From Patiria pectinifera (lineage: Eukaryota > Echinodermata > Asteroidea > Valvatida > Asterinidae): a stretch of 64,000 nt of DNA. The notes beneath the pieces were generated by a model. It saw only the letters and a program-made list of their open reading frames with translations, did no database searches and was not told where the DNA came from. Shown here one piece after another: positions 9,975 through 44,428 of this stretch. The DNA lies in NCBI GenBank assembly GCA_029964075.1, contig CM057141.1:11594001-11658000 (forward strand), given 5' to 3'. The translations under genes and the position numbers were made by a program. Every line of letters starts with the position of its first letter. Position 1 is the first letter of the stretch.

Positions 9975-10474
9975 NNNNNNNNNNNNNNNNNNNNNNNNNN
10001 NNNNNNNNNNNNNNNNNNNNNNNNNNNNNNNNNNNNNNNNNNNNNNNNNNNNNNNNNNNNNNNNNNNNNNNNNNNNNNNNNNNNNNNNNNNNNNNNNNNN
10101 NNNNNNNNNNNNNNNNNNNNNNNNNNNNNNNNNNNNNNNNNNNNNNNNNNNNNNNNNNNNNNNNNNNNNNNNNNNNNNNNNNNNNNNNNNNNNNNNNNNN
10201 NNNNNNNNNNNNNNNNNNNNNNNNNNNNNNNNNNNNNNNNNNNNNNNNNNNNNNNNNNNNNNNNNNNNNNNNNNNNNNNNNNNNNNNNNNNNNNNNNNNN
10301 NNNNNNNNNNNNNNNNNNNNNNNNNNNNNNNNNNNNNNNNNNNNNNNNNNNNNNNNNNNNNNNNNNNNNNNNNNNNNNNNNNNNNNNNNNNNNNNNNNNN
10401 NNNNNNNNNNNNNNNNNNNNNNNNNNNNNNNNNNNNNNNNNNNNNNNNNNNNNNNNNNNNNNNNNNNNNNNNNN
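9975..10474. other. Assembly gap of 500 N
   Basis: Exactly 500 undetermined bases, probably a fixed-size placeholder in a scaffold. Reading frames drawn across it have no meaning. Distances from one side to the other are not reliable. Confidence 0.99.
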
Positions 10475-22340: not shown

Positions 22341-23714
22341 CTGCACAAACAAAGCTGTCAATTCCAAACAATTCTTCACATACACACAAAAACAGCACAA
22401 AAGTGACTATAATAAGACAAAGTAGGGGGGCCTAAAGAGAGCAATTACAGCAAGTACTAAACATGTGCATCCCCGTGGTCGCGCATGAGTTCCCGCCATG
22501 CCCTGTGGACAGGTTTTTTTCACATGAAACAGCCGCGAGACACTTTCTGACGAACTCGGCCGCACTCGGGTTTCGTTGGGCTTAGACTGGTAACAGGTTT
22601 GTTTTTCCTTTTTCGGTTACCCTTTTTTCGTTTTTGTTTTGGCAAAAAAAATGTTGTCTTAGTTTTTAGTTGTTTGTGTTTCAGATAAACAAAATGAAAC
22701 AGATATGAGTGTGCTGCGTTTATTTACATAATGTTAACTGTGTACAAAGGAAAACGATTGATGATTTTGTTTTATACGCATCAAAAGCGGAATGCTGTAA
22801 CTCGATGCGTTGTCTCTTTTTCTGAACACAGACTCAAAAACGGTGTACAGTACAGGGTTTGCTTTTCCTTTTTTTCTTTTTAAAATTAAAAAACGGTAAC
22901 TGGTAAAGGGTTTGCTTCTTCTTTTTTCTTTTTAAAATAAAAAAATGGTAACTGGCAAATGGTTTTCTTTTTGTTTTATCTTTTCAAAATTTCAAAAGCA
23001 AAAACGGGTAAAGGGTTTGCTTTTCCTTTTTTGGTTCAAAAATTTCAAAACAAATACGGGTAAAGGGTTTGCTTTTTTCTTTCTCTTTTGAAAAAATCAA
23101 AAACGGTGACTGGTAAAGGGCTCCCTTTTCCTTTTTTCTTTCCACAAATTCAAAAGCAAAAAAGGGTGAAGGGTTTGCTTTTCCTCTTTTTGGTTTAAAA
23201 ATTTTAAAACAGAAACTGGTAAAGGGGTTGCTTTTTCTCTTTTCTTTTCAGAAATTCAAAAACGGAAATTAGTAAAGGGTTGGCTTTTCTTTTTTCTTTT
23301 CAAAATTTTAAAAACAAAAACTGGTTAAGGGTTTACTTTTTCATTTTCCTGTTCAAACATTCAAAACCAAAAACTGGAAAAGGGTTTGCTTTTTCATTTT
23401 CCTGTTCAAAAATTCAAAACCAAAAATTGGAAAAGGGTTTGCTTTTTCATTTTTCTTTTAAAAAATCCAAAACCAAAAATTGGAAAAGGGTTTGCTTTTT
23501 CATTTTTCTGTTTACAATTTCAAAAATGGTAAAAGGTACAACACTTTTGTTTTTCTGTTTTCGTTTTTTAGACGCATAAACGGAAACTGGTAAACGATTT
23601 CCTTTTTCTGTTTCTTTACCAAGATTGTAATAGGGTAAACGGTAGAGGGTTCGTTTTTCATTTTTCTTTTGACAATTTTCAAACGGTAACTGATTGGACG
23701 GTATGTACACGGAC
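22341..23714. repeat. Right arm of the large inverted repeat
   Basis: This is the reverse complement of 12,423-14,508, from CAGCACAAAAGTGACTATAA near 22,390 to CGGTATGTACACGGAC at 23,714. It contains the same minisatellite units but only one copy of the head, where the left arm has two. Outer borders are sharp: sequence homology stops at GTCCGTG on both sides. No matching target duplication was seen just outside. Confidence 0.9.
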
Positions 23715-24607: not shown

Positions 24608-27600
24608 CTAGTAAAGGTTTGGGCAGCAGTACACGTTCGAATAATCATATGGCCTAGGTGTGTTTGCCACAACGCCCTCGTAGCACTCGGGAGCAATGTA
24701 GACATCACACCCATCACCGTACAGCTGGGCGTCGCGGTCAGGTACCGCGTTGAAGAACCAACCCCAATATGGCTGACGGTAACCTCTGAGGTAGGCTGCC
24801 TTCAGCTCAGGTAGCATGCAGGGGTGCGAGGCCAGCTCAGCACAGGCGTGTGCTTGTCCGGCAAAGTCACCTTTAGCGTATGTTAACGGAGTGATGATGG
24901 GGTCTCGAGGGCTGAGCTGTGACCCGGGGCAGCAGATGCCAGGGGAAGGGGCAGTCATCGGTAGGCCGTGTTGGCTGACCCCGTTCCCGTTCACCACCAC
25001 CGCCTGGCTGTCCGGCACAGCGTACCAGATATCGGTGTCTACCGGTAGTATTCCGGCGTACCCGGCCGCGTAGGCCTGGTCCACTTCCCACAACTCGCAG
25101 AGATGTTGGTCGGCCGTTTTGCAGTCGCTAGAGGCCGATGCTTGTGTGTCATAGGTACGGTCAGTCAGACCAGGTAGCCCTTAATTAAGAAAAAAATTCG
25201 AATAATTTTAATTTGTGTGTGATGCTTTAGCAAATAAACAAACACGATAAATAGTACGTAGTGTTATCGTTTTGCGTATGCGCTGATTTCATGGTTTATT
25301 GAGGCATAGGATCATTTGCATTTATCCCCCAAACTTACCGAATTATAATCAAAAGACTTAGACCTACTTGAGTTAAAGATCAAACTCGTATACTACTTAA
25401 CATCCCGTGAAATTATTTAGGCTGGTTTGCTGTCATTTAGAAGAAATCAAGAAATGAAAGTGATTTCCAATGATATCAGTCAATAGACTGATTCTTGTAA
25501 ATAAAAACATGCTGTGCCTGCAGTACCACTGAAATGATGTATTGCGCCGGCTGATTGCGCCCATTGGCTAAATGTGCCACTTTGCACTACTTCCGGTTAT
25601 GATTTTTTTTGGTCGTTTGTGTGCAAGGATAGGCCGGATACATTTTAAATTTAAGTGCAAAGTTGCTCCGTTACCGGCGATTGACTAGTGTGAGGATCAG
25701 ACCTTCACGTGTGCAGAGCCACACTAGCAACGTCTGATAGTGCATGTTATATGCGACCCCGCGCGCCAGCCAATCGGAACCGCCTTTAGAAACTCGGCCA
25801 AAGCTGATGCTTGGTCAATAGCTGCCATGTTTTTGTCATACAACATCGGGTGACCGTCACGATAGAAGGCGTCGCCGGGCCCGCCCGAATGGTCAGATTC
25901 TGGGGGTCAAGACGCATTGTTGTTTTGCATAAATCTGCGCGCAGTGTAGTTCTGCGCGCAGAAGGTTGCAGACCAGTAAATCGGTCTGAAATTGCCTACG
26001 CCGGCCAAATCACGATTTGCATGCCCTCAAAATCTTCAGTATTTGAGCATGCTGTGGGCCATGAACTTGAGGGTTTGTAAAAAACTATGGGTGGAAGCCG
26101 TGCACAGGACTGTGAGCTTGTAGTTAGTTCAATTTGGATGAAATTGGGGCCCTTAAAGCGCTCTATTTTGCAATGGAGTGTAGGCATCGTTTTTCAACAT
26201 GGCGATGGGCTTCAGGACTATTTTCAGGGGTGATCATCTTCGGATGGAAATTTCTCCTAAAAGTCATCTGTTAACCCCCCCGAAAATTGAAAAGAAAATG
26301 AGAGATGATGAAATAAGCTTTAATTTGATGTATGACTTGAACACCTTGGAGAGTTGTGAGTATTTTTCCCGAATTTCTGAAGTGTGAGCATGTACCATTG
26401 GGGCCTATGGAAGTATATTTACCATTTTACTGGTCTGCAACCTTTAAGAAGCTTGCTGTGCACGCCATATATGGTGCACGCGTCTGTTCCGTTATATTCA
26501 TAATGAAGTGAAGCGACGCGTGTGCGTCGGTTCAGTTGTCATTCAGCTCACGTGTGTTGAGGTATTATTCCTCGGTAAGGAAGACTGTCCAAGACATGGT
26601 TGATGTTCACTGAGCTTTATTCCAAGACAAAATTTACAGGGGAAGGAACTTTCTTGCCTAAGACAAATTCTTCAGAGACAAATTTCTCCAAGGCAAAATC
26701 TCAAAGTCGAAATCTCCATGGCAAAAATAATCCCAGCACCTTACAAGTACCCCATCAACGACCAGAAAAGGAGAGTTGGGGTGCCGGTTGGGGTGACTGG
26801 TTCCCGGTCCATCCACTGCGTACTTCGAATGTATGGTCCGTATGGTATATGTTTAAGCTCCCATGCCTGACTCTGGATCCTCATAAAAAAATAAGGGTTT
26901 TGGTAGAAAGATTTTTCAAGGCTCACGGGTGTTAAAACTCTTGTCAAAACGAGAAAAAAATAGGCGGAGCGTCGGTCGACGCTCATTAATATTCATGATC
27001 CCTACAGTAATTAGCATGCAAATGAAAGCAGAAAATTGTCTCTGTAGGCCTATCTATGCTTTGTTCATTAAGACTGTGGCATAGAGAACGGTCTTCCCAA
27101 ACCCTTCTGTTTTTTTTACAATCGGCACATGGAGCTTCGGTCGGAATACCAACTGCCAAATGGGATTATAATTACCACAAAAATCTTCCAGGCACGATAC
27201 ATTTTCCCTCAACGTGCAGTTTTGTAAGTGGAAGTGTTGGATGACGAAAAGCGTCTCCTGGTGTCAAATGACTGTTCATTTGAAAATTTGAAACACTATC
27301 AAATTTAATTCAAGATCAATTTTTACTCAATGAGTTTGGCATTGAAAAGTCTATCTTTTCTGCTTTGTTTTTCCCAAGCAACAGATTAATTAGACACAAC
27401 TCCGGGCAAATTATTCTAAACAGGGACAGCGTGGCGGAGTTATTTATTTTTTACTGAGCTACATATATTATGCACGAAAAAAACCAATAACTGAGTTCTT
27501 AATCGCCCTTGAGATGTGTATGCGTATATAGTGACTTGACGTGTGATCTGAACGACTGTTCTGAGCTCTTGTACAAAAGCACTGAACGGATTTAGGTTGG

Positions 27601-29664
27601 ACGCGTGACATGCGGGCCTTAAGGCTTAATACCCGTTGGCGTGTTAATCGCCAACGTCTGGCGCTCCACATGAAATCTCGTTAAAACCCGTCAGATCTCG
27701 CGACGGTCCTCGAGCTCGTTGCGATAGAAAGATCTTTAGAAAAGTCACAATTTTGAGTTGGATGCAGCACGTAATTTCAAGCTGCAAGAAGGCGAACATA
27801 AGTGATTTTCATAGGAACATTACATTTCATCGTTTTGGAAGAATTTATTTCGACACTTGGACATCGCAGATGTTTTACGCGTGTCATTTTGTTTGGTTTT
27901 CGCATATGCATCTGAAATGGAAATATTCATAAAATGTTAAGAAAAAAACCCTTTGGGAAAGATATATAGGCCTACTTGCTACAAAATTGTAAAAAAAAAA
28001 ATTAATACTCTAGGATAACAGGCGGTATTGTACAGCTTTTATCGTCATATAGATGAAGTATTTACCCAGGGGGGAAAATCGTCAAAAATTGACACCTTTT
28101 TCGATGGGTTTTTAGTTTTTTTATATAACATTTCTCTTTATTGATCCAAAATGCCGCTTTCTCCCAGTTGATGGAATTGTTTTTTAATTTGACAGAATTC
28201 GACACCGATCGAGAGCACGCAGAGCCCTGCAAATTTGATAGCCACCGCGCGCAGTGAAGCGTAATTGCCACGAGTCTAACAGTGATACTTATAATGGAGG
28301 GAAGATCCATAATAATTAGTCCGTAGTGGTTCTTCTGAAAAGGAAGCAGATTGTATTTGAATCTTTATTGAAACGATCAAGGGTCTGCCTTGGCTTGTAT
28401 TTGTTTAATTATCCGTTAATACAGCGGCACTGAATATTCCTTTACTGTGCTTTCTGATTTCCAAAAGAGTGATACTAGCATGCGTGGGCGTCGCGGGGGG
28501 GGGGGGGCAAGGAAAAGAGAAAGAAAAAAAATACGAAGTGCGAAGTCATATTGCCGTTATTTATTGCACATTTAACAACATCGGGGCGTCCGCAGGTGTG
28601 TCAGTGGGGATGGGATGGGCAAATGTCACCCCGTCCACTCTCGAAAAAAATGATAAATTGAGAATATGCTAGAGAACAAGAAGATTTTCAGAGCTTTGCC
28701 CGTTATAGAAAAAACTGGCGACGCCCATACTGTACGGACTAATCCTCGAATTTTAGATTGACATACTCTGAAAAAAATCATTCCAGTGCAAAAATAAAGT
28801 GAGAATTTGGCAAATTTGATTGAATGCATTTTATGACTCACGTCTGGTCCCTAGCTTCCGAGTCGGCGGATATTTTCACTCGAATTGAGTGACGTTTTAC
28901 CCTTTGGTAATAGCTGGGAGTGCACATTGAATCTTCTAAAGAGCAATTTCATAAAAAAAAGTCTTACCTCTTTCCCATGGTACAAGTAACTGAATCATCT
29001 CAAGCAGTTCAGGCTGAAAAATAAAATTACAAAAAGGAACATATAATAATTGAACTCATTAATAGTAGTCATTGAGACAATCGGTCCATCTAATGCTGGG
29101 CAGTGACCAAACCACAATTGGTTCGAAGTGGGCCATTAATGTTTAATAATGTTTCTTGTTATCTGTTTTACCTAATGACATTTCTTTATCTAAGATAACG
29201 TAAATGTAAGGCGGGAGGATCAGACTGACATGGAAGACAATAATTATTCATGTATTTGTCCTCTTTCATTTCATTTTATCAGATAAGTTTGATTATTTTA
29301 CCTTTTCTGGCCCGTAGTAGTACGCGCCGGGGCTGGGAGCCATAAGCGCCAGCGGGAAACGCCTGGCCGAGGCCCCATTCAGCTCACACCGGCTCGCCCC
29401 GTCCAAGTACCGGTAGTTGATGGAGAAGCAGCGATCGTCTGACAGGCACTCGTTGGCGCACCGCAGTCTCGAAGCCCCCGTTAGGTTGCGGTAGCCGTGG
29501 CCCAGAACGAAGCGCTCAATCGCACCGAACAAATACCGCTGCCCGCACCGGGGAGAGACCGCTGTGGTAATGCCGCTGCATCCTCCGTGCTGGCACGCTG
29601 TCAGACCCCTGGCCTTACAGGCGGCAAAACCCAACACCATCAGAAGAAACACGGACATCATCAT
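24608..29664 (-). CDS. Secreted PAN/Apple-like cysteine-rich protein, paralogue 1
   Basis: Three exons: 29302-29664 (start codon to a GTAAAA donor, phase 0), 28968-29013 (46 nt) and 24608-25179 (ends with TAG). The product is 326 residues. Residues 1-22 form a signal peptide (MMMSVFLLMVLGFAAC). Residues 24-121 contain a PAN/Apple-like pattern, RCANECLSDDRCFSINYRY then CELN. The middle exon adds a charged helical linker, PELLEMIQLLVPWER. The last exon encodes about 189 residues with ICCPGSQLSP, HPCMLPELK, PECYEGVVANTP and a CCPNLY terminus; I do not recognise this module. Export and disulphide bonding are inferred from the signal peptide and cysteines; ligand and role are unknown. The paralogue at 40.07-44.43 kb has identical exon sizes for the middle exon, identical phases and the same strand. 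The start is the first of three Met codons. Confidence 0.8.
26190..26450. repeat. Dispersed repeat, copy 1 (direct relative to 45.35-45.62 kb)
   Basis: Blocks shared with 45,350-45,620 in the same order: AATTTCTC then AAAAGTCA, AAAATGA then GATGA, GAGAGT then GAGTATTTT, GAATTT then TGAAGTGTG, and GTCTATGG-like ends. Identity is moderate. It lies in intron 2 of PAN paralogue 1. Confidence 0.55.
26740..26890. repeat. Dispersed repeat, copy 2 (inverted relative to 1.03-1.17 kb)
   Basis: The reverse complement carries GTACGCAGTGGATGGACCGG and CCCCAACTCTCCTTTTCTGG, as at 1030-1170. Located in intron 2 of PAN paralogue 1. Confidence 0.6.
28483..28728. mobile_element. Probable relative of the hAT-like MITE at 58.9 kb
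   Basis: Left end GTGGGCGTCGC followed by a G run, right end GGCGACGCCCA: the same terminal motif as the element at 58,898-59,177. A target duplication could not be recognised, so the borders are uncertain. Confidence 0.45.
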
Positions 29665-29819
29665 CCAATGCTTCTTGAAATGTAATGAAAATCTAATAGT
29701 TGTGTTGTGTGAAGGCTTTCTGATGGTTACCGTAAACGTTTTGTAAATTCTGCTTTAACCTCACTGATGAAAAGTCAGTACTGCGTAAAAGTCGCTCCAT
29801 GCTTGGGGATGATTAAACT

Positions 29820-30545
29820 GCATTGCAGGGGAGGCAATTAAAGAGAGAGGAAGATGACAACGTAGCCTTTCACCAACGCCATCGTGGCTTAACTTGCCCG
29901 CATTCAAAGCGGCGAACGCGAAGCGACTGGAGATGGAGACCACACATGCGAGTGGCGAAGCCACGAGGGCCTTTTGCAACTTGTCGAGAAATTCTTATGT
30001 TTTTCTTTATAATCTCGATTTTTGCTACCCCAACAGGGTAGCAAAATTCCAACCAATCATCAGCCTTTTCGTGCGTGCGTGGCTACCGCCCGGACGCGGA
30101 CGCGTCGATGCGTCACGTCGGATGCTTGCACAAAATTTAAAAACAAAAAATGCGAGTCTAGTTTTCCACGAGATCGTGACTGCGTAATTGTCTTTACATT
30201 ATCTTATTTTAACTTTACTTATAAATGTATTTCAACAAATTATTTGAGGGTATGAACTTATTTTTCATCTGAACTTACAGTTATTTGCTCTTACGGTTTC
30301 CTTACTCACCCTTCTTTTAAAAATGGAAGCGACTAGGCAAAATCCGCGTTGTGATTGGTTAACCTTCAGCACGCTTCTTATTTGCATAAAAACTATGAAT
30401 AATTCAACAAAATCAAGTTGCAAAAGGCCTCGTGGCTTTGCCACTCGTGCGTGCTGTCTTAATCTTTGCTCCTGTCGCTTCGGGTCTTCGCAACTCCGCC
30501 GCTCTAAGCCACGAAGGCCTGGGCGAAAGGCTAATGACAACGCGA
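29820..30545. mobile_element. Inverted-repeat element of about 725 bp
   Basis: The left arm (TAGCCTTTCACC, CATCGTGGCTTAA, then GCGAGTGGCGAAGCCACGAG and CCTTTTGCAACTTG) is matched in reverse on the right (CAAGTTGCAAAAGGCCTCGT, then GGCTTTGCCACTCG, AAGCCACGAAGGC, GGCGAAAGGCTA). Arms are about 150-180 bp and imperfect. No coding region. It lies just upstream of PAN paralogue 1. Confidence 0.7.
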
Positions 30546-30841
30546 CGCGCGGCATGCTCATACTTATATGGGGAGCAGTTCTTGAAAATGATTCACTCAA
30601 ACAGACTGCACAAGTAGAGAGGGCGCTGTATGTGTGTAACCACGGGCGCGGCGTTCGCAGGGCGGGCGGCGAATACGAGCGAAGGGCGCGGCGTTGCTAG
30701 ATCATTTTTGAATGGGGGGGGGGGAGTGCCATCAAACCTATACATTTTATACAAAAGACAAAAAAAGCAGTGCACAGAAAACACAAGTCACAACGGTGGG
30801 CAAGTCACGGTAGCCAAAGCAATTTTGCGGCAACCCCCTTA

Positions 30842-30916
30842 CGCTGATTGGCTGCCTTAGGATCCAAACGCTGATTGGCTGCCTTAGGATCCAAACGCTG
30901 ATTGGCTGCCTTAGAA
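30842..30916. repeat. Three tandem 27-bp units, each with a CCAAT-box core
   Basis: GCTGATTGGCTGCCTTAGGA followed by TCCAAAC occurs twice exactly, then a third time with the end changed. Each carries ATTGG, the reverse of CCAAT. A CAGATAAAAG stretch follows at about 30,928. A promoter on either strand is possible, but no transcript start or gene can be shown. Confidence 0.8.
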
Positions 30917-31289
30917 TCCTGCAGCCTCAGATAAAAGCAAGATGCTTCGTACAACGTCCGCAATTGTGCGAGATTCGCCAACGGAAAGCGAGCAGACAGG
31001 GAACTTGATTTGCATACGCACCAAACCAATATCTTTGCGTTGAGTTGAGTATAATGAATTTTATCATTAATTATTTTAATAATAAAAATGTTATACTTGA
31101 ACTCCAATTAAGCTTGAAAGACAGACACTATCAAGTTGTTTGGTTTTCCATCCAGACTGAGGACTGGGGTCGGGACAATGGGGTGAGTTCGTTTTCAATT
31201 GCACCGAGGATCTGGGCACTTGTCCTCTGGAGCATTTCGTGTACAAACCTTATGCGCCTATCAATTGTTCCCCCACCCCTCCCCCGGGC

Positions 31290-31520
31290 TGCCCCACCCA
31301 AGACGTGGGGATTGTCACTTTTGAAGTGACAAAATCCCCACCCCTCGGGCAAAATTTAAGTGACAATCCCCGACCATGCCCCAACATACATTTACGTGGG
31401 GCGCGCTATAGTGATTGCCTTTCCATGCAGTACGCCAATGTTAACAATGAAATTTGAGCGACCAAAACCCCCACCCTGGGGCATGAAAAAATCCCCACCC
31501 TGGGGCATGAAAAACGTGAT
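31290..31520. repeat. Short repeats of CCCCACCCTGGGGCATGAAA type
   Basis: AATCCCCACCCTGGGGCATG occurs twice in tandem near 31,470-31,510. Upstream, GGGGATTGTCACTTTTGAAG and AAGTGACAAAATCCCC form a small hairpin. G/C-rich runs surround the block. Confidence 0.55.
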
Positions 31521-31599
31521 CAAATCCTATCATCGGACCTGGGGCAGCGCAAGCGGGGATGGGGGGGGGGCGCTCTTCAGGATATTAATATCAATAATG

Positions 31600-32960
31600 T
31601 TTACTTCAGCTTAAGTTATATTAAAACGGCGCCGAAAGCTTTTCCATTGCTATTGAATACATTTTGGATGTTGGGTTGTTCGACAAATACCTCGAAATCA
31701 ATAGCCCCCCGGTAAAAAAGAGGGGCATATAAAACTCCTCCCCCAATCCTCCGGGATTTACGCCCCTGTATTTTTGACGAATGTTGGACTGTAATCATCT
31801 TTATAGCAGGCAAAGCCAAAATGGAGACCACGCTGAGTTTTGGAAAATCCCGGTAACGGTCGTCAAATTCAGAATAGTACATGACGCAGCAAAGCTCGCA
31901 TACTTAATGCGCAAAATCGTCTCAGAATTTCAAGTTTTCTATAAAGTGCAAGCAATGAATATTAATTACCAGCTCATTTTTAAAATTTTTAATAAGCAAG
32001 GCAGGTAAATAAATCTTATACTTGGAAATACCCGATCCAAGATTGTCGACAAAATTAATTCGGCAGACTTGCGGCACTTTTCATGGTGAAATCTCTTTTT
32101 TCCCCCTACCTGCATTGATTGACAACCATAGCCTTGCACTCTGTCTGTGACAATTGACACAACAAAAAGCACAATTGAAAAGTTGCGCAATTCTCTAATT
32201 AGACCCTTTCATAAAATTGGCCACTGCTCAGTCAACCGTGAATGTAATGACCAGGGTGTCATTTTAAAGAGGAGACTCGACCCTAACAAAAGATATCTCC
32301 CTTTGATTCACATGTGCCCTACTTCTGTTCCAATTAGCAATAATATCTCGGTTTCGTTTTTTTTAATCCATTCCGTATAGTTATTCTAAACCACCTTGGC
32401 AGTTTTCTTTTGCTTGGAACTTTTCTAAATCCTCCCAAATCATCCAATGTGCAAGGAAGCAAACAGCACAGCCTCATCCGTTCCTAATTACCTTTTAGAA
32501 GCATCAAGTCTCATATAAAGTTATCCAAAACAAAATACTCCACAACCCCATACTAAATCGCCAAGTACCTGGATAGGTTATAGGATTAAGTAAATTACCA
32601 AGTTCATCATGGCAGAGCAGGGTTTACCCGAGAATAATTTGTCAGCTGTATGCTAAATATTAACCTTTTTTGTTCAGATATAATCAACAATATAAACTCA
32701 ATAGGGGGCGCTGTTCAAATTCGACGATTATTAACACTAGATTACAGAATGTTGTACATTATACCAGTATAATTTTTGGGGGTGTCACGGGGGGGGGGGG
32801 GGGTTCGACTTATTTTTTAGGAATTTGTAGGATAATTTTTTTTTTTTTTAGACAGAGCTGGTTTTTTTTGACCCCCCAAACCCCCCTTTGGATCCGCGCC
32901 TGTACCGTGAAAATAAGTGCTGAGGTCTGAGTGCCGGGACCATATCCAAAGATGCACTTA
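31600..32960. other. No gene seen; fragment of the GATCCGCGCCTG family near 32.8 kb
   Basis: AT-rich DNA with chance frames. At about 32,780-32,905 a G run, a T run and a C run lead to GGATCCGCGCCTGT, a motif also ending repeats at 12.2, 14.6 and 45.2 kb. Confidence 0.5.
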
Positions 32961-32969
32961 GAAAAGAAC

Positions 32970-33553
32970 TTAAAGGGAACATGTAATAGGAGTTTTATGA
33001 CTTAAATACATTTAAAACAGCTTTCTTGCCATGTAACCATGATTTTTCACCTCCTTTGTAGCAGTAAAAGGGAGAAATTTCAACATTTTAGTTTTTATGC
33101 TAATGAAAATGTTCCATATTCATGAACCAAAGCCTGATGTCATTCAAGGCAGAACAGTAGTGTGTCCATAGCTTTGTGTACAACAAAATATATCAAACTT
33201 TTCTTCATTTTCTTGGAGTAACTTCCGCTTTTTACTTGTTTATCATGTTAAACAGCTTGTTTGGACAAAGGTAGTGGCCAATATTTCTTCCAAAAAATGT
33301 GTGGGTAATTTTAGAGGACTAATTTTTGTACTGTTCATAATGCATTTTTGACAAGGAGTTCCTTATGTGACAAAAGCAAAATAGCGCCCCTTACATGTAT
33401 ATTGATGAAAGGATTTTGCTAATCATTGAAAAACTACCACTTTCTCGTCACTTCCAATGAAAACATGTATTAAGATCTTGTGTGTATTGTTGCATCACAT
33501 AGTTACGTGCATGAAAACAAGATGACCTGAATTTCCACTGCATGTTTCCTTTA
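32970..33553. mobile_element. MITE with TTAAAGG ends
   Basis: Left end TTAAAGGGAACATG and right end CATGTTTCCTTTAA are inverted copies. The 584-bp interior is AT-rich and non-coding. The target duplication is unclear. Confidence 0.65.
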
Positions 33554-33987
33554 AATTAGTTCGTGTTTTCATCGTTGGCGATTCGTTCTTAGGCTATCTG
33601 TTTGAATAGCAAAATGAAAATCACGCACAGATCTTTTTGGTACTGATCTTTGACATTTATTAAAAACTACCGAATTTGTGATATTCATATTATTCTTAAA
33701 GACATGGGTAAACAGTGCATCTGACACAAACAAAAAACATAAAATCAACACATTTTGAAACAACTTGTAACAGTTACCAATAATGTTGGCTGCTGTGATG
33801 TGGGATATGACGTTTTGAATACCCGAGGGGCGCATAGCCTCGGGTGCTATGCGCCCACCGGGGGTGTCGCTGCCCCTGGAGTACGATTTTCCGCGGCGCA
33901 GTGTTTTGTATTTGGAATAAAAATGGATGCTACGTTCGTCGCACAAATACGCAACGTTATGTTTTTTTCTTTTGATAAAAATATGTG

Positions 33988-34110
33988 ACTCGAGTCGAGT
34001 CACAAAGCTCGAGTCCGAGTCATCATGGTCGAGTCCGAGTCCGAGTCATTTTCCAATGTGACTCGAGTCGAGTCCGAGTCACGAAAAATGTGACTCGCGT
34101 CCTGGACTCT
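33988..34110. repeat. GAGTC/GAGTCC-rich simple repeat
   Basis: Repeated CGAGTCCGAGTC and GTGACTCGAGTCGAGTC units. CGAGTCCGAG sequences also flank the hAT-like insertion at 58.9 kb. Confidence 0.8.
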
Positions 34111-34148
34111 AACACTGCCAACGATACACACCATTCGTACCGTACGAA

Positions 34149-34207
34149 AAGTCATAGCACACACTCCCTGTGGGTACGTGATATCCCACAGGGAGTGTGC
34201 CATGACA
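34149..34207. repeat. Perfect 16-bp hairpin
   Basis: GCACACTCCCTGTGGG and its exact reverse complement CCCACAGGGAGTGTGC enclose TACGTGATAT, with further partial pairing outside (GTCATAG against CATGAC). Short element or regulatory stem; no gene is nearby. Confidence 0.7.
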
Positions 34208-34844
34208 TTTATAAACTTAACACGTGATCGTTATAGGCCAATTAAAATACAGCATTCAAGACAGAGGTATAACAATTAAGCAAGAATACCATTAGCATAT
34301 CACACAAACGTAATGATTATTAAGTAAGTAGCCTACATACAGCTTTTCAATGCGACATGTCAAAATTGAAAAAAGTATATGAGAATATAGTAGCCTACAA
34401 CTCAACAATGAAACTATTTATTTCCATTTTTTTCCGCCAAGATAATTTGTTCCACATGACACATGCTGATGTTAAAAAACCCACTCACATACTGCAACTG
34501 CACAGATGTAACAAACTAATGCACATGTTTTTGTGTGTATTGCAAAGTTACATCACAGGGAATAATTAGGAAATAATCATGGATTCGTCCCTTTGTTGTC
34601 ATAAATGGATATGCATTATTTTATAGTCTTCAGAACTTTTATATTCATATGCATTTGACTGTACAATTACAATTGATTATGGTGACCTCATAAATTGCAT
34701 TTTAAAATTAGACGTGAACATATTTGTTGGGGTAGACATTGGTGTCAATATAATAAGTGTTTTACTTGCAAATGTGATTAGGCATTGTACACAGAAAAGA
34801 AACTTGTATTCTATAGATATCATGCTTATATGTTGTGTACAATG

Positions 34845-35035
34845 TCAAACCCTTACTCCCTGGGCATTTTTGCTAGGATGCAACCTCAATCCTGCAAAAT
34901 CCTCCAATTGCCTCCATGTTATAATAGCACACAGCCTCAATCCTGCAAAATCCTCCGTTATTTCTTGAATCCTGCAAAATCCTCCTTTTTGCAAAGAGGA
35001 TTTTGGAGGATTTGGGAAGGTTAGGGTTACGTTCT
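34845..35035. repeat. Dispersed repeat with CCTCAATCCTGCAAAATCCTCC units, copy 1
   Basis: CTCAATCCTGCAAAATCCTC occurs twice (34,889 and 34,944), AATCCTGCAAAATCCTCC once more at 34,968, then AGGATTTTGGAGGATTTGGG closes the block. The same phrases are present in reverse at 60,105-60,530, including the outer ACTCCCTGGGCATTTTTGCT. Confidence 0.8.
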
Positions 35036-35039
35036 AACA

Positions 35040-38000
35040 CTTGCAAGTTAATAATGTACTTATTCTCACTGGAGACAATCTAGGAGAAATTAAATTTGGA
35101 ATTATCTGACGATTAAATTTAGAGTGGATTAAAAAAAATCTACAGTCGACTGCATCCATGACAAAATGTTCTAGTTGGCCTTGTGCCAATTAATGTGCAT
35201 TTTGCACGCACATTCTTGTTTCAGTCGACGAGGTTTTTGCAAATTATAAACACGCAGTGCATTTGCAAAACCATCCTTGTGGCACACGTTCTACATGCAT
35301 GCATTTTATTAACATTAAAGAGGCTTAGCTTAAAAGAAAAGACATGAAATCCTACCCCGAGATTAAAACCGTAAAATATTTTGAAATGAGTTAAACCATT
35401 TTATTTATATTTAATACACACAAACGATTTTACAACATAATTTGAAGTACCTATTTATAAAAAAAAAATTGATAATGGTTGACACGAACTATGTCGACTT
35501 TTGTTTGGAGGACATAGAGTAAATTTACTAACTGGTGTTTCTTTACTCACGACTTTTAAATTTGTAGGTTTTATTTTAACGTATGGAACCCTCTGAAAAA
35601 AACCCCGTAAAAATATCCACCTCAGTTGTGTATCTAGGCCTACGGGGTAGATCCAGCTAGTGGGTTTAAGCCCCCCCCTTCCCCCTTAGGCTACAAAAAA
35701 TAGGAAAGTAATGCGGTAAAAAAGTACCACTGCTAACCCTCCTTCTCCCTCTACCCCCGTCCCGTCCCTTTTACCTCCCCTCCCCTCCCCCTCCCCAAGC
35801 CTCGTCGTGCCGCAAAATTAAAAGTCGATTTATTTACAGCCATTGTTCCACACATAAAATTAATGTGGGTCGAGGTTTTTCGTGCAGTGTCTCATCATTT
35901 TCATAAGTGAATAGATTTTGTATTGTTAGAAATATAGTCCATGTAAATAAAAAAATTTAATTGATTTTTCTCGGGGTTGAAAACAGAATGGGAGAGGACT
36001 TTCATGAGTGGTTTTATGGCCGGCTATAATTCAGAACATAAAGAGCATCAATTTTATATGATATAATTATAATACAATATTTCGCAGTATTGGACATTGC
36101 CAACCCGTCCGTAAAGCGGGTTAATTAATGGCATAAAGCAGTAACTCGCCCCGCCATGGGCATAATTCAAGGCGGTTTTTTTTTTAAATTTCGGGCCGTG
36201 TTTTCACGGTCGTAAACAAAAATTGGTTAGAAAAATGAAGGATGGAAATTGTCAACTCGTCTATTAAAGCCGGTTAATTAGTATAACGAGTAACTCGCCC
36301 CGCCATGGACACAATTCACTTGTTCTTTAATTTCGGGCCGCGGTTTGGTGGTCGTAAGCAAGCAAAAATAGGACCATTAATAGGATTGACATTGCGCCGG
36401 CGAGATGTCAATCCATTATTGGGTTTTGACCTTCACAGGCGTGCATGAAAAAAAATTGAAAAAAGCTGAACCCCACGACCTGTTGCTAACGGCTACTAAG
36501 CTTGCCGCCGAGCCATTTGGCTGGCTGGTTCGTATTTGATATAGCATGTGGGTACCGCAACCAAACTATGGAATTTGCGTTAGTGTAACCGGTGTAACCG
36601 AGTATTAATCATGTTTGGTTAAAGATGTTTCCCCGTTTATTCATTGGGTTTCATTCTTTGCATTGCTTTACCTATTGATCTGCTTTATTTGGTATTGACT
36701 GTCTAACTCATCCATTGAATTTGCCCCCTATATATATTTTTATTATTTCCTTCAGTCTTTCAAGATTAATTCGTGTGAATGTTTTCCCCTTCATTTTCCG
36801 ATATGCATTGTAATCATTAATGGTTTAATGTAACATTTTTATACAGTTCATGATTTTTATTTCCATTTATTTCCATTTATTCATTAGGTTCACTCTTTGC
36901 GTTGCCTTGCATTATTCACACTGACTGTCTAAGAATTCCATTGAATTTTTAATTTTATTATTTTCTGAAATTTTTCGAGATCCCAGATGTGAATTCATTC
37001 CATAGCATGCATTGTAAATATCAATATACATGTAGTTAGTTTAAGAATTTTATTTCAATTTATTAGTTGGGTTCCTTTATGTACTGCTCTTATGAAATGT
37101 TTTTGATTATGTGGAATTTCTAGTTAATCTATTTTGCATAATTCATTTTGTTTGAATAATTTCCCTTCTTATAACTTTGGGCCTGCTAGGCCTACTTGTA
37201 TGTTTACCGATTTGATACTTTGCAGAATCATACCGCCTCGGACGAAAATAGGCCTACATGCTTCGGCCTAAAGCCGGGCATTCGTAAGTGATAGATTCCG
37301 TTAGTTGAGATATTGAGGGGCAAAACCCCATATTGGGAACCTGGTTTGGTAAATCAAAATGCTGAGCGTTTTGGCGACTTCAGTTTAATTGATAGTGGTC
37401 AACCATTGATAAACAACCGAACCGTTACATTTTGGTTGTGCGAGTCGCACTGAACGAGTGCGACCGCCAAACGCGGCCGCGCCGGTGTGATATGAATATC
37501 GGACTCCTATGAAAACCGGACTTTTGTTTCGTTTTATTGGTTAAACCCTCTCATCTGGCCGGTCCCCTTCGTAATTATCTATACATGGGCATGCGCAATA
37601 ATACCAAGGAGTCCGTATTTCACAAAATCCCTAAATTCATGTTACACCGGCCTTGAATCCGGCGACTATAGAATAAGCAATATTTTCGTTGTTGAATAAT
37701 TAAACAAGAAGAGGAGTGTAGATGACTAGTTTTCACTTGATTCCCTTAAACAGGCACGGATATCCGGGGAGTCAACCCCCCCCTCCCCCAGCTCTGTCCA
37801 AAAAAATGTTTGTTTTTGTTAAAAATGCGAACCCCTCCCTGCTCCAACGCAAAAAAGTACTGGTAATAACGTCCGCATGTGCACAAAATACGGACATAGC
37901 CAGCTTGGTTAGGGTATTTGTACACTATTCTGTAATATAGTTTAATAATCTTCAAATTTTAACGAGCACACCAACCCCCACCCCCATCCCCCACAAGTGT

Positions 38001-38310
38001 CCCGACAAAAAAAAAACCCGTCTACATTTCCGCAATGATTTGCTGATAACCCCCCCCCCCCCCGCGAAAATGTATAACATTTTCATCAATTGATAATGAA
38101 AAAGAACGCGTAACGCGCTTTAACGCCCCCAACGCTTTCAGAAATTGCAGCGCCAGGCCGGCCAGTTGGCGCCCTTAAAATGTGTGAACACATATTGTGT
38201 GGGTCCGCCCTTGGTGGCCTCCCATGAGACGCTGGTGACCGTGCAACCTCCCCCCCCCACCGAACCGCGCCTGATTTTCAAAAGTCACGCACGCGCGAAA
38301 TGGTAGGAGC
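35040..38310. other. Intergenic, repeats only
   Basis: Besides the 145-bp direct repeat there are C-rich runs at 35.67-35.80, 37.77 and 38.05 kb and a short hairpin (GAGTCGCAC / GAGTGCGAC) at 37.44 kb. No exon with splice context or protein similarity was seen on either strand. Confidence 0.5.
36098..36370. repeat. Two direct copies of a unit of about 145 bp
   Basis: GGTTAATTA, then AGTAACTCGCCCCGCCATGG, then TTTCGGGCC and GGTCGTAA occur in the same order at 36,118 and 36,269. Just to the right, GGATTGACAT and ATGTCAATCC form a small hairpin around 36,393. Confidence 0.7.
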
Positions 38311-38313
38311 CCT

Positions 38314-39598
38314 CCGGTATATGGAACGCCAAAGCCGCCTTCTATAGTTCGATTTCATTCCATAATCAATTTCATTATTCCATTCGGCGATTTCATCATT
38401 CCATTCGGCAATTTGATCATTCCATTCGGCGATTTCATCATTCCATTCGGCGATTCCATCATTCCATTCGGCGATTCTATCATTCCATTCGGCGATTCCA
38501 TCATTCCATTCGGCGATTCCATCATTCCATTCGGCAATTTCATCATTCCATTCGGCGATTCCATAATTCCATTCGGCGTTCATCCTTTCATTCGTCTATT
38601 TCGCATTTGATTTAGCCATTCCACATTTCATTCAGCAATTTCGCCCGTTTTGCACTTCATGCTATTCTGCATTTCGCTTTTCATGCAGCCATTTCGCATT
38701 TCATGCAGCTATTCCGTATTTCATTCGGTCTGGCAGCGTCCATCCGTACGGAAGCGTTAAAGGGACATAAGACAAAGTAAAAAAAGGTCTTAATTATGAC
38801 TTATTATTAAGTCATTGTTATGACATATCTTATAATAATGACTATTAAGTCATAATTATATTATCATAATTACGACTTAGTAATTGTTAAATCAAATATG
38901 ACTTTATATATATAAATTATGACTTATTTTTAAGTCTATTTTATGACTTATATGTTATAATAATGACTTAATACTAAGTCGTAATTATAAGATATGTCAT
39001 GACTTAATAATAAGACATTATTATAAGATATAAGTCATAAATATGACTTAATAATAAGTCATAATTATGAGATATAATATAATTATTATTAATTATTATT
39101 ATAATTATGATTTAACAATTACTAAGTCGTAATTATGAGATATATATCATAATTATGACTAAACACTAAGTCATTATTATAAGATATAAGTCATAACAAT
39201 GACTTAATAATAAGTCCTAATTATGACTTCTTTTTTTTTTACGTGGTGTTATGTCCCTTTAACGCTTCCGTACGGATGGACGCTGCCGGACCGAATGAAA
39301 TGCGGAATAGCTGCATAAAATGCGAAATAGCTGCATGGAATGCGAAATGCAGAATAGCATGAAGTGCAAAAGGGGCGAAATTGCTGAATGAAATGTAGAA
39401 TGGCTAAATCAAATGCGAAATAGACGAATGAAAGGATGAACGCCGAATGGAATGATGGGATCGCCGAATGGAATTATGGAATCGCCGAATGGAATGATCA
39501 AATTGCCGAATGGAATGATGAAATCGCCGAATGGAATAATGAAATTGATTATGGAATGAAATCGAACTATAGAAGGCGGCTTTGGCGTTCCATACCGG
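38314..39598. mobile_element. Foldback element, near-complete palindrome of 1.28 kb
   Basis: The left end CCGGTATATGGAACGCCAAA returns in reverse at 39,575-39,598. Each arm (about 450 and 350 bp) contains, from outside in, AGCCGCCTTCTATAGTTCGA, a 21-bp array with core CATTCCATTCGGCGATTC, unique sequence, and CGTCCATCCGTACGGAAGCG before TTAAAGGGACATAA. The left arm has ten 21-bp units, the right five. The central 440 bp is AT-rich and built of ATGACTTA and TAAGTCAT blocks that are self-complementary again. No coding capacity. Confidence 0.9.
38375..38580. repeat. Ten 21-bp tandem units in the left foldback arm
   Basis: Units read ATCATTCCATTCGGCGATTC with changes at two or three positions. 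Since 21 is divisible by 3, open frames appear on both strands with seven-residue repeats (AEWNDGI on the minus strand). I take these as artefacts. Confidence 0.9.
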
Positions 39599-39779
39599 TA
39601 CGAGTAACCGTATAAAAACCCCGTGCGGATATTTGTTTCCGGAGTGCTTTTACGTGACCGTAGAACGTGGCGTTGTTATTGACGCCATGTTTACGGTTCT
39701 ATACTCGCATAAATGGTGAAGAATCCTTTCAAAAAATCATGAATCTAGACCCAGATCCTGATCACCCTCCAAATCTAAT

Positions 39780-39940
39780 CGATTTGTACTTGCACTAAAG
39801 GACCACCCCTAAACAAAATTTCATGAAAATCCGTCCATAACGTTTTGAGTTACCTTGTTAACAGACAAACCAACAACCGACAATCCAACAAATTTTACAC
39901 AAAAACAAACCAACCGATTAACGTCGGTGAAAACATAAGC
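39780..39940. repeat. Fragment of a widespread invertebrate repeat
   Basis: TTTCATGAAAATCCGTCCAT, then GTTACCTTGTTAACAGACAA and AACCAACAACCGACAATCC. Sequences of this style often end dispersed repeats in marine invertebrates. Family not named. Confidence 0.4.
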
Positions 39941-40068
39941 TCCTTGACGGAGCAAAGTATTTCTCAAACATGTGAGTTATCAGAGCCTTCTTACATGCAA
40001 TGACGATCGAGTGATGTACATGTACATGTATATTCTTTGTACATAGCAAAATAGGTTATTTGCTCGAT

Positions 40069-43000
40069 CTAGTAAAGGTTTGGGCAACAGCACACCTTCA
40101 CATGATCATATATCCTAGGTGTGTTTGCCACAACCCCTTCATAGCACTCAGATGTACGGTATTTACCGCACCCATCGCTGAACAACTGGGCATCTCGGTG
40201 ACGTACCGCGATTAAGCACCAACCCTCCCGACCGGAGGGGATTGGTTGACGGTAACCTCTGAGGAAGGCTACCTTCAGCTCGGGTAGCATGCAGGGGTGA
40301 GAGTCCAACTCAGCACAGGCGCGTGCTTGTCCAACAAAGTCACCTTTGGCGTATTTTACCGGGGTGATGATGGGGTCTCGAGGGCTGAGCTGTGACCCGG
40401 GGCAGCAGATGCCAGGGGAAGGGGCAGTCATCGGCAGACCGTGTTGGCTGACCTCGTTCCCGTTCACCACCGCCTGGCTGTCCGGCACAGCGTACCAGAT
40501 ATCGGTGTCTACCGGTAGTATTCCGGCGTACCCGGCCGCGTAGGCCTGGTCCACTTCCCACAACTCGCAGAGATGTTGGTCGGCAATTTTGCAGTCGTTA
40601 GAGGCCGATGCTTGTGTGTCATAGGTACGGTCAGTCAGACCAGGTAGCCCTTAATTAAGAAAAAAATTCGAATAATTTTAATTTGTGGGTGATGCTTCAG
40701 CAAATAAACAAACACGGCGAATAGTACGCAGTGTTATCGTCTTGCGCATGCGCTGATTTCATGCGTTTATTGAGGCATAGGATCATTTGCATTTATCCCC
40801 CAAACTTACCGCATTATTATCAAAAGACTTAGACCTACTTGAGTTAAAGATCAAACTCGTATACTTAACATCCCGTGAAATTATTTAGCCTGGTTTGCTG
40901 TCATTTAGAAGAAATCAAGAAATGGAAGTGATTTCCAACGATATCAGTCAGCACTGATTCTTGGAAATAAAAACACGCGCGCACGCACCACTGATGTATT
41001 GCGCCAGCTGATTGCGCCCATTGGCTAAATGTGCCACTTTGTACTACTTCCGGTTATGATTTTTTTGTCGTTTGTGTGCAAGGATAGGCCGGATACATTT
41101 TAAATTTAAGTGCGAAGTTGCTCCGTTACCGGCAATTGACTAGTGTGAGGATCAGACCTTCACGACGTGCAGACCAGCAGCGTATGATATATCCGTGCAT
41201 GTAAATTATATGCGACCTCGTACACCAGCCAATCGGAGCCGCCTTTAGAAACTGATGCTTGGTCAATAGCTGCCATGTCATACAACATCGGGTAACCGTC
41301 GTAATAGAAGGCGCTGGCCCGCTCAATGGTCAGATTGCAGGGCGGGTTGTTTGTGCATAAATCAAAGCCCACTTTTCAGAGGGTTGCAGACGCCCAAAAG
41401 CGGAATAAAGTAGTTTTTTTTTGTTAAAACAAAACGTACAAAATGAAAATATATTAGGAGAAAACCTTTTTTTAAGAGCACGGGACACATCTTTAACTTG
41501 CCAATCGGGACACATCTTTAACTTGTCTAATCGACAAAGTGACCAAATTAGGAAAAAACAAATTAAAAAATATGTGGCTCGCTCCATTTCATAAAAATAA
41601 CATAGGGATAACTGACTTAGTGACGGTGAGAATTTCACGTAATTTGCATAGTATTGCCAAGTTGTGTCTATTTTAATGAAAAGATCACAAAATTCAGATC
41701 TCCACCCATGATCCGATACCGTTCTACGAACTGATGAGGCCACTCCATGATTGAGCGAAAACTTGCAAAGGAAAACAGTCACAAATCGTCATCAACATTT
41801 CTAAAAAATAAAGAGTTGACTTTTCCTCATTATGCAAACACAAACAAATTCAGTCTTGACTCAAATGATACAAATCTCATTTTGTATTTGAATGCATGTG
41901 TGTAAAAGCTGTAATTCTCACTCGGCTCAAAAGCTTCCAATGGCATTCCATAAAAACAGGTTGTTTTCGTAACACATTGCGTAACCTCTGGTAGCATGGA
42001 TCACTTCATTATTTTTTCAGATGAGTGGAAGAACATGTTCTTTTAAAGACACTTCACTGGTGTATCAAATCACCTATCGTCGGGCGGACGCACGTCGTCG
42101 CTGGGCTGGTATCTACTGGGCCTCGGCTCAGCAGCCATTGACTCGACTGGATGCTGCGACCGGTGAGCTGCCGTTCGTTCTGATGCTGGCTTCACCACTC
42201 TGAGCTTTCGGCGGGCCCGATGCTCGTCTCGTGAATGAGACTTTTTATCAATATTCGAACTTTTCCGTTTCGTGTGGGCAGGCCGACAAGCGTTCACATC
42301 AATCGCAAGATGCTACCAACTGGATCGCTGCTGCTTCATGGTCGGGCTAGATTATTAATTATGATTATTTAAAGTTAGATTTTGATGTTGTAAATTAATA
42401 ATCTCTTAGAGCTTGATTGACTTGATTGCAAGTTGATGTATTGAATTGTGGATCAATATAAATTGAGTAGATTTGCAAAATTTAAATGTTGTCTTCTGAC
42501 TTTGATTCATTTTACTTGATTGTCAATTTACAACAGTACACCAATGAAGCATGTTTTGAACGAAAATGTTCTTCCACTCGTGTGAAAAAAAAGAACTACT
42601 GAAATTGATCCATGATATCAGAAGTTATGCATGTTTACTAAAAGAACCCATTTTTACGGCTGTCCATGGAATGCTAAATGCTTTGAAGCTGCAGCTTGGT
42701 GATAACCAGAGATTACACACAGGCATTCAGATACAAATGCGATCAAGACTGAAACATTGTTTTGAGTGTCAGATTTTGAGTTTTGTATATGAGGAACAAA
42801 TCAATTTTTTTTCTGAAATGATGATAGTGATTTTTGTCTGTTTTCCTTTACAAATTTTCGTGCATTTTATGGAGGTAGGAAAACCCAATGGTATTTTAAA
42901 GGTATTCATCGGTAAATGATCAGTGGACGACGGCCTTTTGTTGCTGTCCATTTTAAAAAATTAAAATAGAGATAACGTGTGATTACAGACTGTACAGTAT

Positions 43001-44428
43001 ATGCAAATTGTGTGAAATTTCCACAGTTAATGATATGTACTTTATTTCTATAGTTATTTTATTTTATTTTTTAACTCGGACACTTTCTGTTTGACTCACC
43101 CAGTATTTATCTCGGGGGATTTTTTTTTTAAATCACCAATTTTGTTTGGTTATTTCATGGGGCACACAGCGTTGGTGGAGTAAAAAGATAAGTACAATGG
43201 TTGGAATTAAAGGAAGAAGATTGTGAATCCTATATTGAAACGTGCATGGGTCTACAACGAATCTTCGAAATGACGTGGAAATCTTACCTCTTTCTCCTGG
43301 TCCAAGTAATTCCAGCAGCTCAAGAACTTTAGGCTGAAGAATTAAGAAAAAGGAACATAAATAAGTAAGAGATGCATTTCCCGTGCCATTTTCGAGTTTC
43401 GCCTCGATTTCTTTTCAATTGCTATTTTCCTAACAATATAAAAGTTATTCACTTTGAATGAGACATTGAACAAAAAACACCGACGTTTAGTTATTGATAT
43501 TTTTTTCTCAAAAATGTGGGTATGTATAATAGCTGATGCTTGCGAGGGACCGGAGATGCGAAACGTTTTAATATATTTCCTAAACATTTAAGACAACAAG
43601 GTGTCTTCACCCCTCATTAGATTAAAACAAGAATCGTTTGAGGGAGGGGGAGGGTCCCCCTCCTCCCGATCCGCCAATGCCAGAAAATAATTCGGCTCTC
43701 GCAGGTCGGGTTATTCGTGCATAAAATGAAATTCCTTTCTCAGAGAGTTGCCGACGCCCAAAATCGGAATACATTTTAAAACAAAACATACGCCTACAAA
43801 TTGAAAATGCGTAAGGAAAAAAATGAAGGCATGGGGTATCTATAACTCATTGGTGCAAGTTTGGCAACGTGACAATTATCGGTCAATCCCAAGTCAAACT
43901 TGGCTCTAAGCGAAGCATTTGTCGTTGTACTTTTCTATCTCGTTTATACCTTAGAATAGTTACTTCAAATTTAACAAACCTACCCCTGAAGTCTGGCGAC
44001 TCATATCGAAGACCAGGGTTCATACACCCCCCCCATTTCATTGTATTTGAAAAGTTTCATTATTTTACCTTTTCTGGCCCGTAGTAGTACGCCCCGTGGC
44101 TGGGAGCCATAAGCGCCAGCGGGAAACGCCTGGCCGAGGCCCCGTTCAGCTCACACCGGCTCGCCCCGTCCCAGTACCGGTAGTTGAGAGAGGAGCAGCG
44201 ATCGTCTGACAGGCACTCGTTAGCGCACCGCAGTCTCGAAGTCCCCGTTAGGTTGCGGTAGACGTGGCCCAGAACGATCCGGTCGATCGCGCCGTATAAA
44301 TACCGCTGCCCGTACCGGGGAGAAGCCGATGTAACGCCGCGGCATCCTCCATGCTGCCACGCGGTGACACCGATCGGCGTGCAGACGGTAAATCCCAACA
44401 CCATAAGAAGAGACACGAACATCGTCAT
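40069..44428 (-). CDS. Secreted PAN/Apple-like cysteine-rich protein, paralogue 2
   Basis: Exons 44069-44428, 43288-43333 (46 nt) and 40069-40649 give a 328-residue product with the same phases as paralogue 1. A signal peptide (MTMFVSLLMVLGFTVC) precedes RCANECLSDDRCSSLNYRY and CELNGASARRFPLALM. The linker is PKVLELLELLGPGER. The last exon shares with paralogue 1 the segment LWEVDQAYAAGYAGILPVDT through ICCPGSQLSPRDPIITP almost unchanged, but the end differs: here GYRQPIPSGREGWCLIAVRH and YRTSECYEG, with three residues inserted. The intron before the last exon is also nearly identical to that of paralogue 1 for at least 300 bp. Tandem duplication is clear; role unknown. Both copies are open throughout, so I see no sign of decay. 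Confidence 0.8.
40650..41360. repeat. Intron part of the segmental duplication shared with 25.18-25.93 kb
   Basis: From the splice acceptor outward, ATTCGAATAATTTTAATTTG, CATTTGCATTTATCCCCCAA, GTGATTTCCAA and GGATAGGCCGGATACATTTT are shared in order with 25,180-25,930, with small indels. Similarity fades near 41,360 and 25,930. Confidence 0.85.
41361..43280. other. Intron 2 of PAN paralogue 2, no further gene seen
   Basis: AT-rich sequence. Frames at 41,330-41,782 (minus) and 42,566-42,919 (plus) have no family resemblance or splice context and are treated as chance. Confidence 0.5.

Follow-up and report, generated by a model that had tools for sequence, protein, structure and literature searches.

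Patchwork divergence between paired PAN-like genes, and selected sites in their relatives, in the sea star Patiria pectinifera

We examined a 64,000-nucleotide stretch of the Patiria pectinifera genome (assembly GCA_029964075.1, contig CM057141.1, positions 11,594,001 to 11,658,000 of the forward strand), which is referred to here as the window. It contained two related genes, A and B, whose divergence was a patchwork of conserved and variable parts. Gene A (window positions 29664-24608) and gene B (44428-40069) were both on the minus strand, and 14.8 kb separated their start codons. Each gene had three exons (363, 46, and 572 nt in A; 360, 46, and 581 nt in B), which were joined in frame to encode proteins of 326 and 328 amino acids, respectively. 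The reading frames were open, all intron borders were GT-AG, and the phases were equal, in agreement with the common exon layout and 46-nt middle exon described in an initial annotation of the stretch. No match besides A and B was found when the two proteins were compared to the window via tblastn.

A and B were aligned base by base, mismatches were counted per aligned base, and change-points were evaluated by permutation. In exon 1, the first part differed at 31 of 151 positions (20.5%) and the rest at 10 of 216 (4.6%). In exon 3, the mismatches rose from 9/297 (3.0%) in the first part to 10/100 (10%) and then to 39/172 (22.7%) in the last 172 bases. The portion of intron 2 adjoining exon 3 differed at 16 of 315 positions (5.1%), and the portions further upstream at 27/264 and 10/98 (about 10%). 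The gain from a single change-point was reached by 0 of 5000 permutations in each block (exon 1; exon 3 plus intron), and the 16/315 mismatches in the intron were significantly fewer than those at the end of exon 3 (Fisher p=2e-8) or the start of exon 1 (p=7e-7). The sliding comparison that the initial annotation proposed thus revealed uneven identity, with the intron closer than the coding ends. The annotation had described near identity over the first half of the last exon and at least 300 bp of intron, and the shared intron tract proved even longer, about 720 bp, with similarity fading upstream; the divergence that it had reported for the C-terminal end and parts of exon 1 was also borne out. 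The blastn similarity between A and B ended 9 bases beyond the stop codon, and the upstream end of the alignment was at 25899 in A and 41336 in B.

When the 720-bp tract was compared to the genome (40 of 2782 candidates scored), the 41 matches listed were A, B (full length, 87%), 38 copies of a dispersed repeat (76-80%), and one short match. Because A and B had in common both the repeat insertion and its unique surroundings, the tract reflects common descent, by duplication or copying, and not two independent insertions. The lower divergence of the intron relative to the coding ends around it, together with the shared repeat insertion, pointed to patchy gene conversion.

Further copies, which the initial annotation had suggested looking for, were found. 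A genome search with exon 1 yielded 19 strong matches (E <=1.1e-13) among the 100 matches listed (best 150 of 255 candidates scored), and a search with exon 3 yielded 19 strong matches (E <=3.4e-32) among the 28 matches listed. Exons 1 and 3 paired one to one, by position and strand on C18 and by coordinates on C13 and C14, which gave a family of 19 genes: 2 on C13 (A and B), 2 on C14, and 15 on C18. The exon-1 donor was at the corresponding place in all 19 members. Only A and B yielded the 46-nt middle exon; across roughly 1.5 kb downstream of the other 17 exon-1 loci, the best AG/GT-bounded exon, scored at the 46-nt length only, matched at 18 of 46 bases. One C18 gene, L044, carried an in-frame stop in exon 3. 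Weaker relatives with exon-3-type modules were present on C20, C19, C7, and C18 among the matches listed.

For the analyses described below, L052 and L054, which were near-identical to L051 and L053, were left out of the C18 ratios of nonsynonymous to synonymous divergence (dN/dS), the synonymous counts, the trees, the site models, the simulations, the GENECONV-like test, the diversity estimates, and the column permutations. L044 was left out of the simulations, residue diversity, column permutations, third-position trees, and some site-model fits; L056 and L057 were left out of one site-model fit; and L018 and L022 were left out of the exon-1 site model.

Near-identical pairs of loci were observed at 4.68/4.94 Mb on C18, 9.88/9.99 Mb on C20, and 5.84/5.93 Mb on C17, and two of the three pairs were inverted. 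The C18 pair was aligned, and the C20 and C17 pairs were judged by their translations and equal scores. These pairs were either true duplicates or haplotypes that the assembly placed twice. As a separate observation, the similar C18 genes L018 and L020 (92.7% over 2.7 kb, in opposite orientation) differed in an exon-1 block, which read TVVSRVL in one and TLPSLAM in the other. This block occurred on other backgrounds in other genes, as if a short stretch of the PAN module had been exchanged.

We then compared synonymous divergence along the exons. In exon 3 of A and B, synonymous changes numbered 2.5/54.5 in the first of two tandem modules (module 1) and 13.5/38.8 in the last part (Fisher p of 1e-4 or 6e-4, depending on rounding). 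Similar counts were obtained with the C14 genes, an independent pair (4/54 and 15/42; p=7e-4). In exon 1, A and B differed at 13/37 synonymous sites in codons 1-51 and at 4/53 in the rest (p=0.002), whereas the control comparison of A to a C14 relative was flat (18/33 and 23/48; p=0.65). Tracts with low synonymous or intron divergence therefore lay beside tracts with high divergence, although the corresponding outgroup control for exon 3, taken up below, was not flat. With the intron closer than the coding ends, patchy synonymous divergence, and a flat exon-1 control, the gene conversion proposed in the initial annotation was supported.

Different parts of exon 3 also gave conflicting trees. 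Each part was tested against the best tree of the other part only. For 17 of the 19 genes, module 1 and the C-terminal part rejected each other's trees, with log-likelihood differences of 94 and 227 (approximately unbiased test, p of 1e-4 and 9e-25). The same was true of the 13 C18 genes (differences of 84 and 209; p of 5e-6 and 2e-5). As a guard against amino acid convergence, trees were built from third codon positions, and the conflict persisted in 16 genes without L044 (differences of 47 and 128; p of 2e-4 and 7e-4) and in 12 C18 genes (38 and 117; p of 3e-5 and 8e-55). Conflicting trees from different parts of a gene, as in a gene conversion mosaic, were thus seen in 17 of 19 genes, and with third positions in 16 of 19. 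The GENECONV-like test marked 8 of 136 pairs overall and 9 of 78 pairs within C18.

Site models were fitted with a home-made codon model (F3x4 codon frequencies, branch lengths scaled from Hasegawa-Kishino-Yano trees of the same part). In the C-terminal part of the 13 C18 genes, dN/dS was 0.79, and model M2a was preferred to M1a with a likelihood ratio statistic (LR) of 50.3, with 13% of sites at a dN/dS of 5.8. Removal of the stop-bearing copy lowered the LR to 40.9 and removal of three copies to 21.2, and the LR was 45.7 when the C13 and C14 genes were included; the last 40 C-terminal codons on their own tree gave an LR of 43.1. In simulations without positive selection, an LR of 40.9 was reached in 0 of 40 replicates (one tree) and 0 of 80 replicates (four trees), and the maximum was 13.6. 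No positive selection was detected in module 1, the middle part, or exon 1 of the C18 genes (LR of 0.0, 0.3, and 0.4). Stable selection was seen at positions 34, 37, and 54 of the C-terminal part, and mostly at 55 as well; these sites were located in loops 2 and 3 of the second module (module 2).

Residue diversity followed the same division. As an internal control, the mean residue entropy in 12 C18 genes was 0.27 in the second half of module 1 and 0.84 in the C-terminal part. Columns that differed within the C13 and C14 pairs tended to be the columns that were variable in C18, and within the C-terminal part this overlap was reached in 254 and 0 of 10000 permutations. By the site models and simulations, sites with dN/dS above 1 that were robust to recombination were found in the C18 arm of the family.

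The signal peptides of A and B were judged by eye. Three members were scanned for PAN_1 (PF00024): A scored 18.5 bits, B 19.1 bits, and the C14 member L011 22.2 bits, with a Pfam cut-off of 21.4. For the PAN module named in the initial annotation, one of the three members, L011, was over the cut-off, and A and B fell just short. Another 81 PAN-like matches to exon 1 were present among the matches listed; many of them fell within long open frames, and C21 was a frequent location, with frames of about 340-430 codons at 8.36-8.83, 9.9-10.1, 15.3, and 19.6 Mb and elsewhere. PAN_1 was over the cut-off at both C21 places scanned (L028 and L036). These C21 matches are a separate expansion.

Exon 3 consisted of two copies of one module, since the profiles of modules 1 and 2 matched each other with an E of 3e-9 and 96% probability over 72 columns. 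The profiles A3, A4, and A5 were built from 17, 13, and 9 chosen sequences, with the stop-containing L058 and L063 excluded. With E values up to 10 allowed, Xlink (PF00193) matched 7 of 13 module sequences (best E, 0.0012), and a longer stretch of L059 gave 0.0003; of 9 module sequences that were scanned against Pfam, 6 had sub-threshold matches with E values of 0.0003 to 0.018. No whole module exceeded the Pfam cut-off, as the best score was 21.4 bits (L059) against 27, and A itself had an E of 8. When compared to PDB, the module profile matched only aggrecan (E of 0.0065), the exon-3 profile ranked two unrelated chains ahead of aggrecan, and protein A matched nothing. NCBIfam gave no match for the 4 proteins scanned, and comparison of two profiles to the two Xlink loci listed in the genome (on C9) via hhalign offered no support (1.8% and 0.7% probability). 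The likeness of the modules to Link and C-type-lectin-like domains thus lay in sub-threshold Xlink matches and aggrecan. Differences were that the match covered mainly the first half of the Link domain (L043 reached position 71 of 92) and that the cysteines differed, as judged by eye. These comparisons weakly suggest a Link-like character, which is a lead and not a domain membership.

Taken together, the data led us to a reading that we consider probable: A and B belong to a 19-gene family in which copying between paralogs homogenizes a frame and selection acts on loops in the C18 genes, so that the family would be a germline-diversified set of secreted recognition proteins. The family protein would begin with a signal-peptide-like stretch followed by a PAN-like module; in A and B a short linker exon comes next, and a single exon encodes two Link-like modules in tandem. 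Paralog copying, by gene conversion or unequal exchange, would repeatedly homogenize the frame; in A and B, this would concern the 3' part of exon 1 as well as module 1 and the intron next to it. Among the C18 genes, copying appears to have shuffled the beginning and the end of exon 3 between genes. In the second half of module 2, homogenization would be weaker, and in the C18 arm a few sites there change under positive selection. The loops of this half would most likely form a putative binding face for a variable ligand. A homogenized frame with diversifying loops is the pattern expected of a germline recognition family. The gene structures, the family, the patchwork, the conflicting trees, and the selection in C18 are results of the analysis, whereas secretion, the binding face, the recognition role, and the immune role suggested in the initial annotation are inferred. 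In a bolder version, which we regard as rather doubtful, the genes would be an undescribed sea star recognition system on a PAN and double-Link-like scaffold, with a homogenized frame and intron and with last-module loops that escape homogenization, are mixed among loci, and are under positive selection. If real, such a system of germline cassettes might serve bat stars in recognizing pathogens or in allorecognition.

Several results weighed against the probable reading, in which copying homogenizes the frame. The exon-3 outgroup control was not flat: in comparisons between C13 and C14, synonymous divergence was 0.23-0.33 in module 1 and 0.62 in the last part (two pairs; p of 0.01 and 3e-4), between C13 and C18 it was 0.50-0.51 and 0.70, and all group comparisons had fewer synonymous changes in module 1 than in the last part. 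The explanation is either slower synonymous change in module 1 or an earlier exchange of this module between C13 and C14, and part of the exon-3 contrast may be put down to a module 1 that is slow in general. This control weakened the case for conversion, and the third-position trees strengthened it; neither a slow module 1 nor an older exchange alone explains the six- to tenfold gap in synonymous divergence within pairs, and the shared intron is independent of the question. For the two C14 genes, the alignable intron sequence next to exon 3 was only about 240 bp long. In addition, the GENECONV-like test relies on shuffled columns, and uneven rates along the exon inflate it.

The evidence for selection had its own weak points. 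The A-B pair alone showed no selection: dN/dS in the C-terminal part, the check proposed in the initial annotation, was not above 1 (0.44 by the Nei-Gojobori method; 0.61 by maximum likelihood, not different from 1), and fourfold sites in this part differed at only 2 of 19. Age and selection are therefore inseparable in this pair, and the proposal of a diversifying family stood in the C18 arm, with its LR of 50.3 and the simulations, but not for A and B. In the site models, branch lengths were scaled from nucleotide trees and posteriors were naive Bayes, and the first 27 C-terminal codons alone gave a nonsignificant LR of 3.2. As for the fold, the AlphaFold predicted local distance difference test scores were low (29 for two exon-3 sequences and 38 for two exon-1 sequences).

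Among the alternatives, the strongest concerned function. Conversion with selection on loops also occurs in reproductive and allorecognition proteins, and the family may tentatively be seen as a set for gamete or self/non-self recognition, or as an adhesive, mucus, or digestive set, instead of one for antimicrobial defense. In a review, allorecognition in P. pectinifera is described as appearing after metamorphosis (PMC13428168). The genes are a candidate set for allorecognition in a species where allorecognition is reported.

A single recent duplication followed by intron turnover and fast C-terminal change, with no conversion, is very unlikely. It would fit the exon layout common to A and B, their 97% identical core, and a C-terminal part that was faster in all three clusters and also between C13 and C14. 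However, it does not account for an intron at 5% divergence between coding ends at 20% and 23%, for exon-1 synonymous sites that were patchy in A-B but flat between C13 and C14, for blastn similarity that stopped so soon after the stop codon, or for the tree conflict across the wider family. Least probable is an assembly artifact, with haplotypes of one locus placed side by side or short-read polishing copying one paralog onto another: heterozygosity is 5.16%, with four rounds of short-read polishing, according to the assembly report (PMC10511450), the A-B core divergence was near that level, and some C18 copies had the same or nearly the same exon-3 protein (L051/L052 and L053/L054), but the A-B blastn matches (the exon-3 tract, exon 1, a 91-bp piece at exon 2, and one 69% non-corresponding match) were unlike those of haplotypes, no gap or N run separated A from B (the sole N run of the window was at 9975-10474), and polishing would presumably be unable to create 720 bp of homology or to swap strongly different segments.

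Gene conversion has been invoked for the sea urchin SpTransformer (Sp185/333) genes, and this family is, to our knowledge, the closest known system. The SpTransformer genes have two exons, with repeat elements in the second, whereas A and B had three exons, a PAN-like module, two Cys modules, and short-loop variation; the bat star genes therefore differ from the SpTransformer layout. Three papers describe the SpTransformer genes as short and alike, lying in tight clusters, with repeats and a main exon of mosaic pattern (PMC5491942, PMC9623053, PMC5103432), and a fourth describes an intron with a patch that resembles the intron of another gene (PMC8634487). Judged by these descriptions, the bat star genes were likewise clustered echinoderm genes with a mosaic main exon and a patchy intron. 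The likeness to PAN/apple proteins lay in exon 1, which matched PAN_1, over the cut-off in the C14 member. FREPs, another system of this kind, carry fibrinogen domains. In the review noted above, FREPs of snails and VCBPs of amphioxus, the latter with Ig-like domains, are both diversified immune families (PMC13428168). A literature search, with most subscription journals outside its coverage, listed no title on such a sea star family among its matches. A compact family with a homogenized frame and selected sites offers named genes and positions for testing recognition diversity without lymphocytes in echinoderms.

Table 1. Coordinates of the features of genes A and B within the window
Feature	Position	Strand	Remark or basis
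Gene A exon 1	29302..29664	-	Start resembles a signal peptide (by eye); a PAN/apple-like module follows; PAN_1 E 0.0018, short of the cut-off
Gene A exon 2, 46 nt	28968..29013	-	Gene model
Gene A exon 3, 572 nt	24608..25179	-	Two tandem Cys-rich Link-like modules
Gene B exon 1, 360 nt	44069..44428	-	Gene model, PAN_1 scan
Gene B exon 2, 46 nt	43288..43333	-	Gene model
Gene B exon 3, 581 nt	40069..40649	-	Gene model
Module 1 of gene A exon 3, conserved frame	24887..25177	-	Profile comparison, residue diversity
Module 2 of gene A exon 3; second half is the variable part	24611..24886	-	Profile comparison, dN/dS, residue diversity
Variable loop 1, after GYR, module 2	24770..24775	-	Variable; weak support for selection
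Variable loop 2, between Cys and ECY	24695..24703	-	Selected in C18 genes
Variable loop 3, after TPRP	24644..24649	-	Selected in C18 genes
A side of homogenized tract	24880..25899	-	Covers the initial 300 nt of exon 3 and about 720 bp of intron 2; differs from B by 3% to 10%, more so upstream
B side of homogenized exon-3/intron tract	40350..41336	-	blastn/alignment; low end approximate
A side of second homogenized tract, 3' part of exon 1	29302..29510	-	4.6% divergence
Dispersed repeat within shared intron tract	about 25308..25505	.	Genome search

A scan of the window with Rfam gave nothing at the gathering score. Beside gene B, a 406-codon open frame (47210-48430, minus strand) contained a Forkhead domain (PF00250, E 3.6e-18) and is probably the main exon of a Fox transcription factor gene. 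To the left of gene A, one 53-bp satellite formed two arrays in opposite orientation, at 12445-14018 and 22827-23534.

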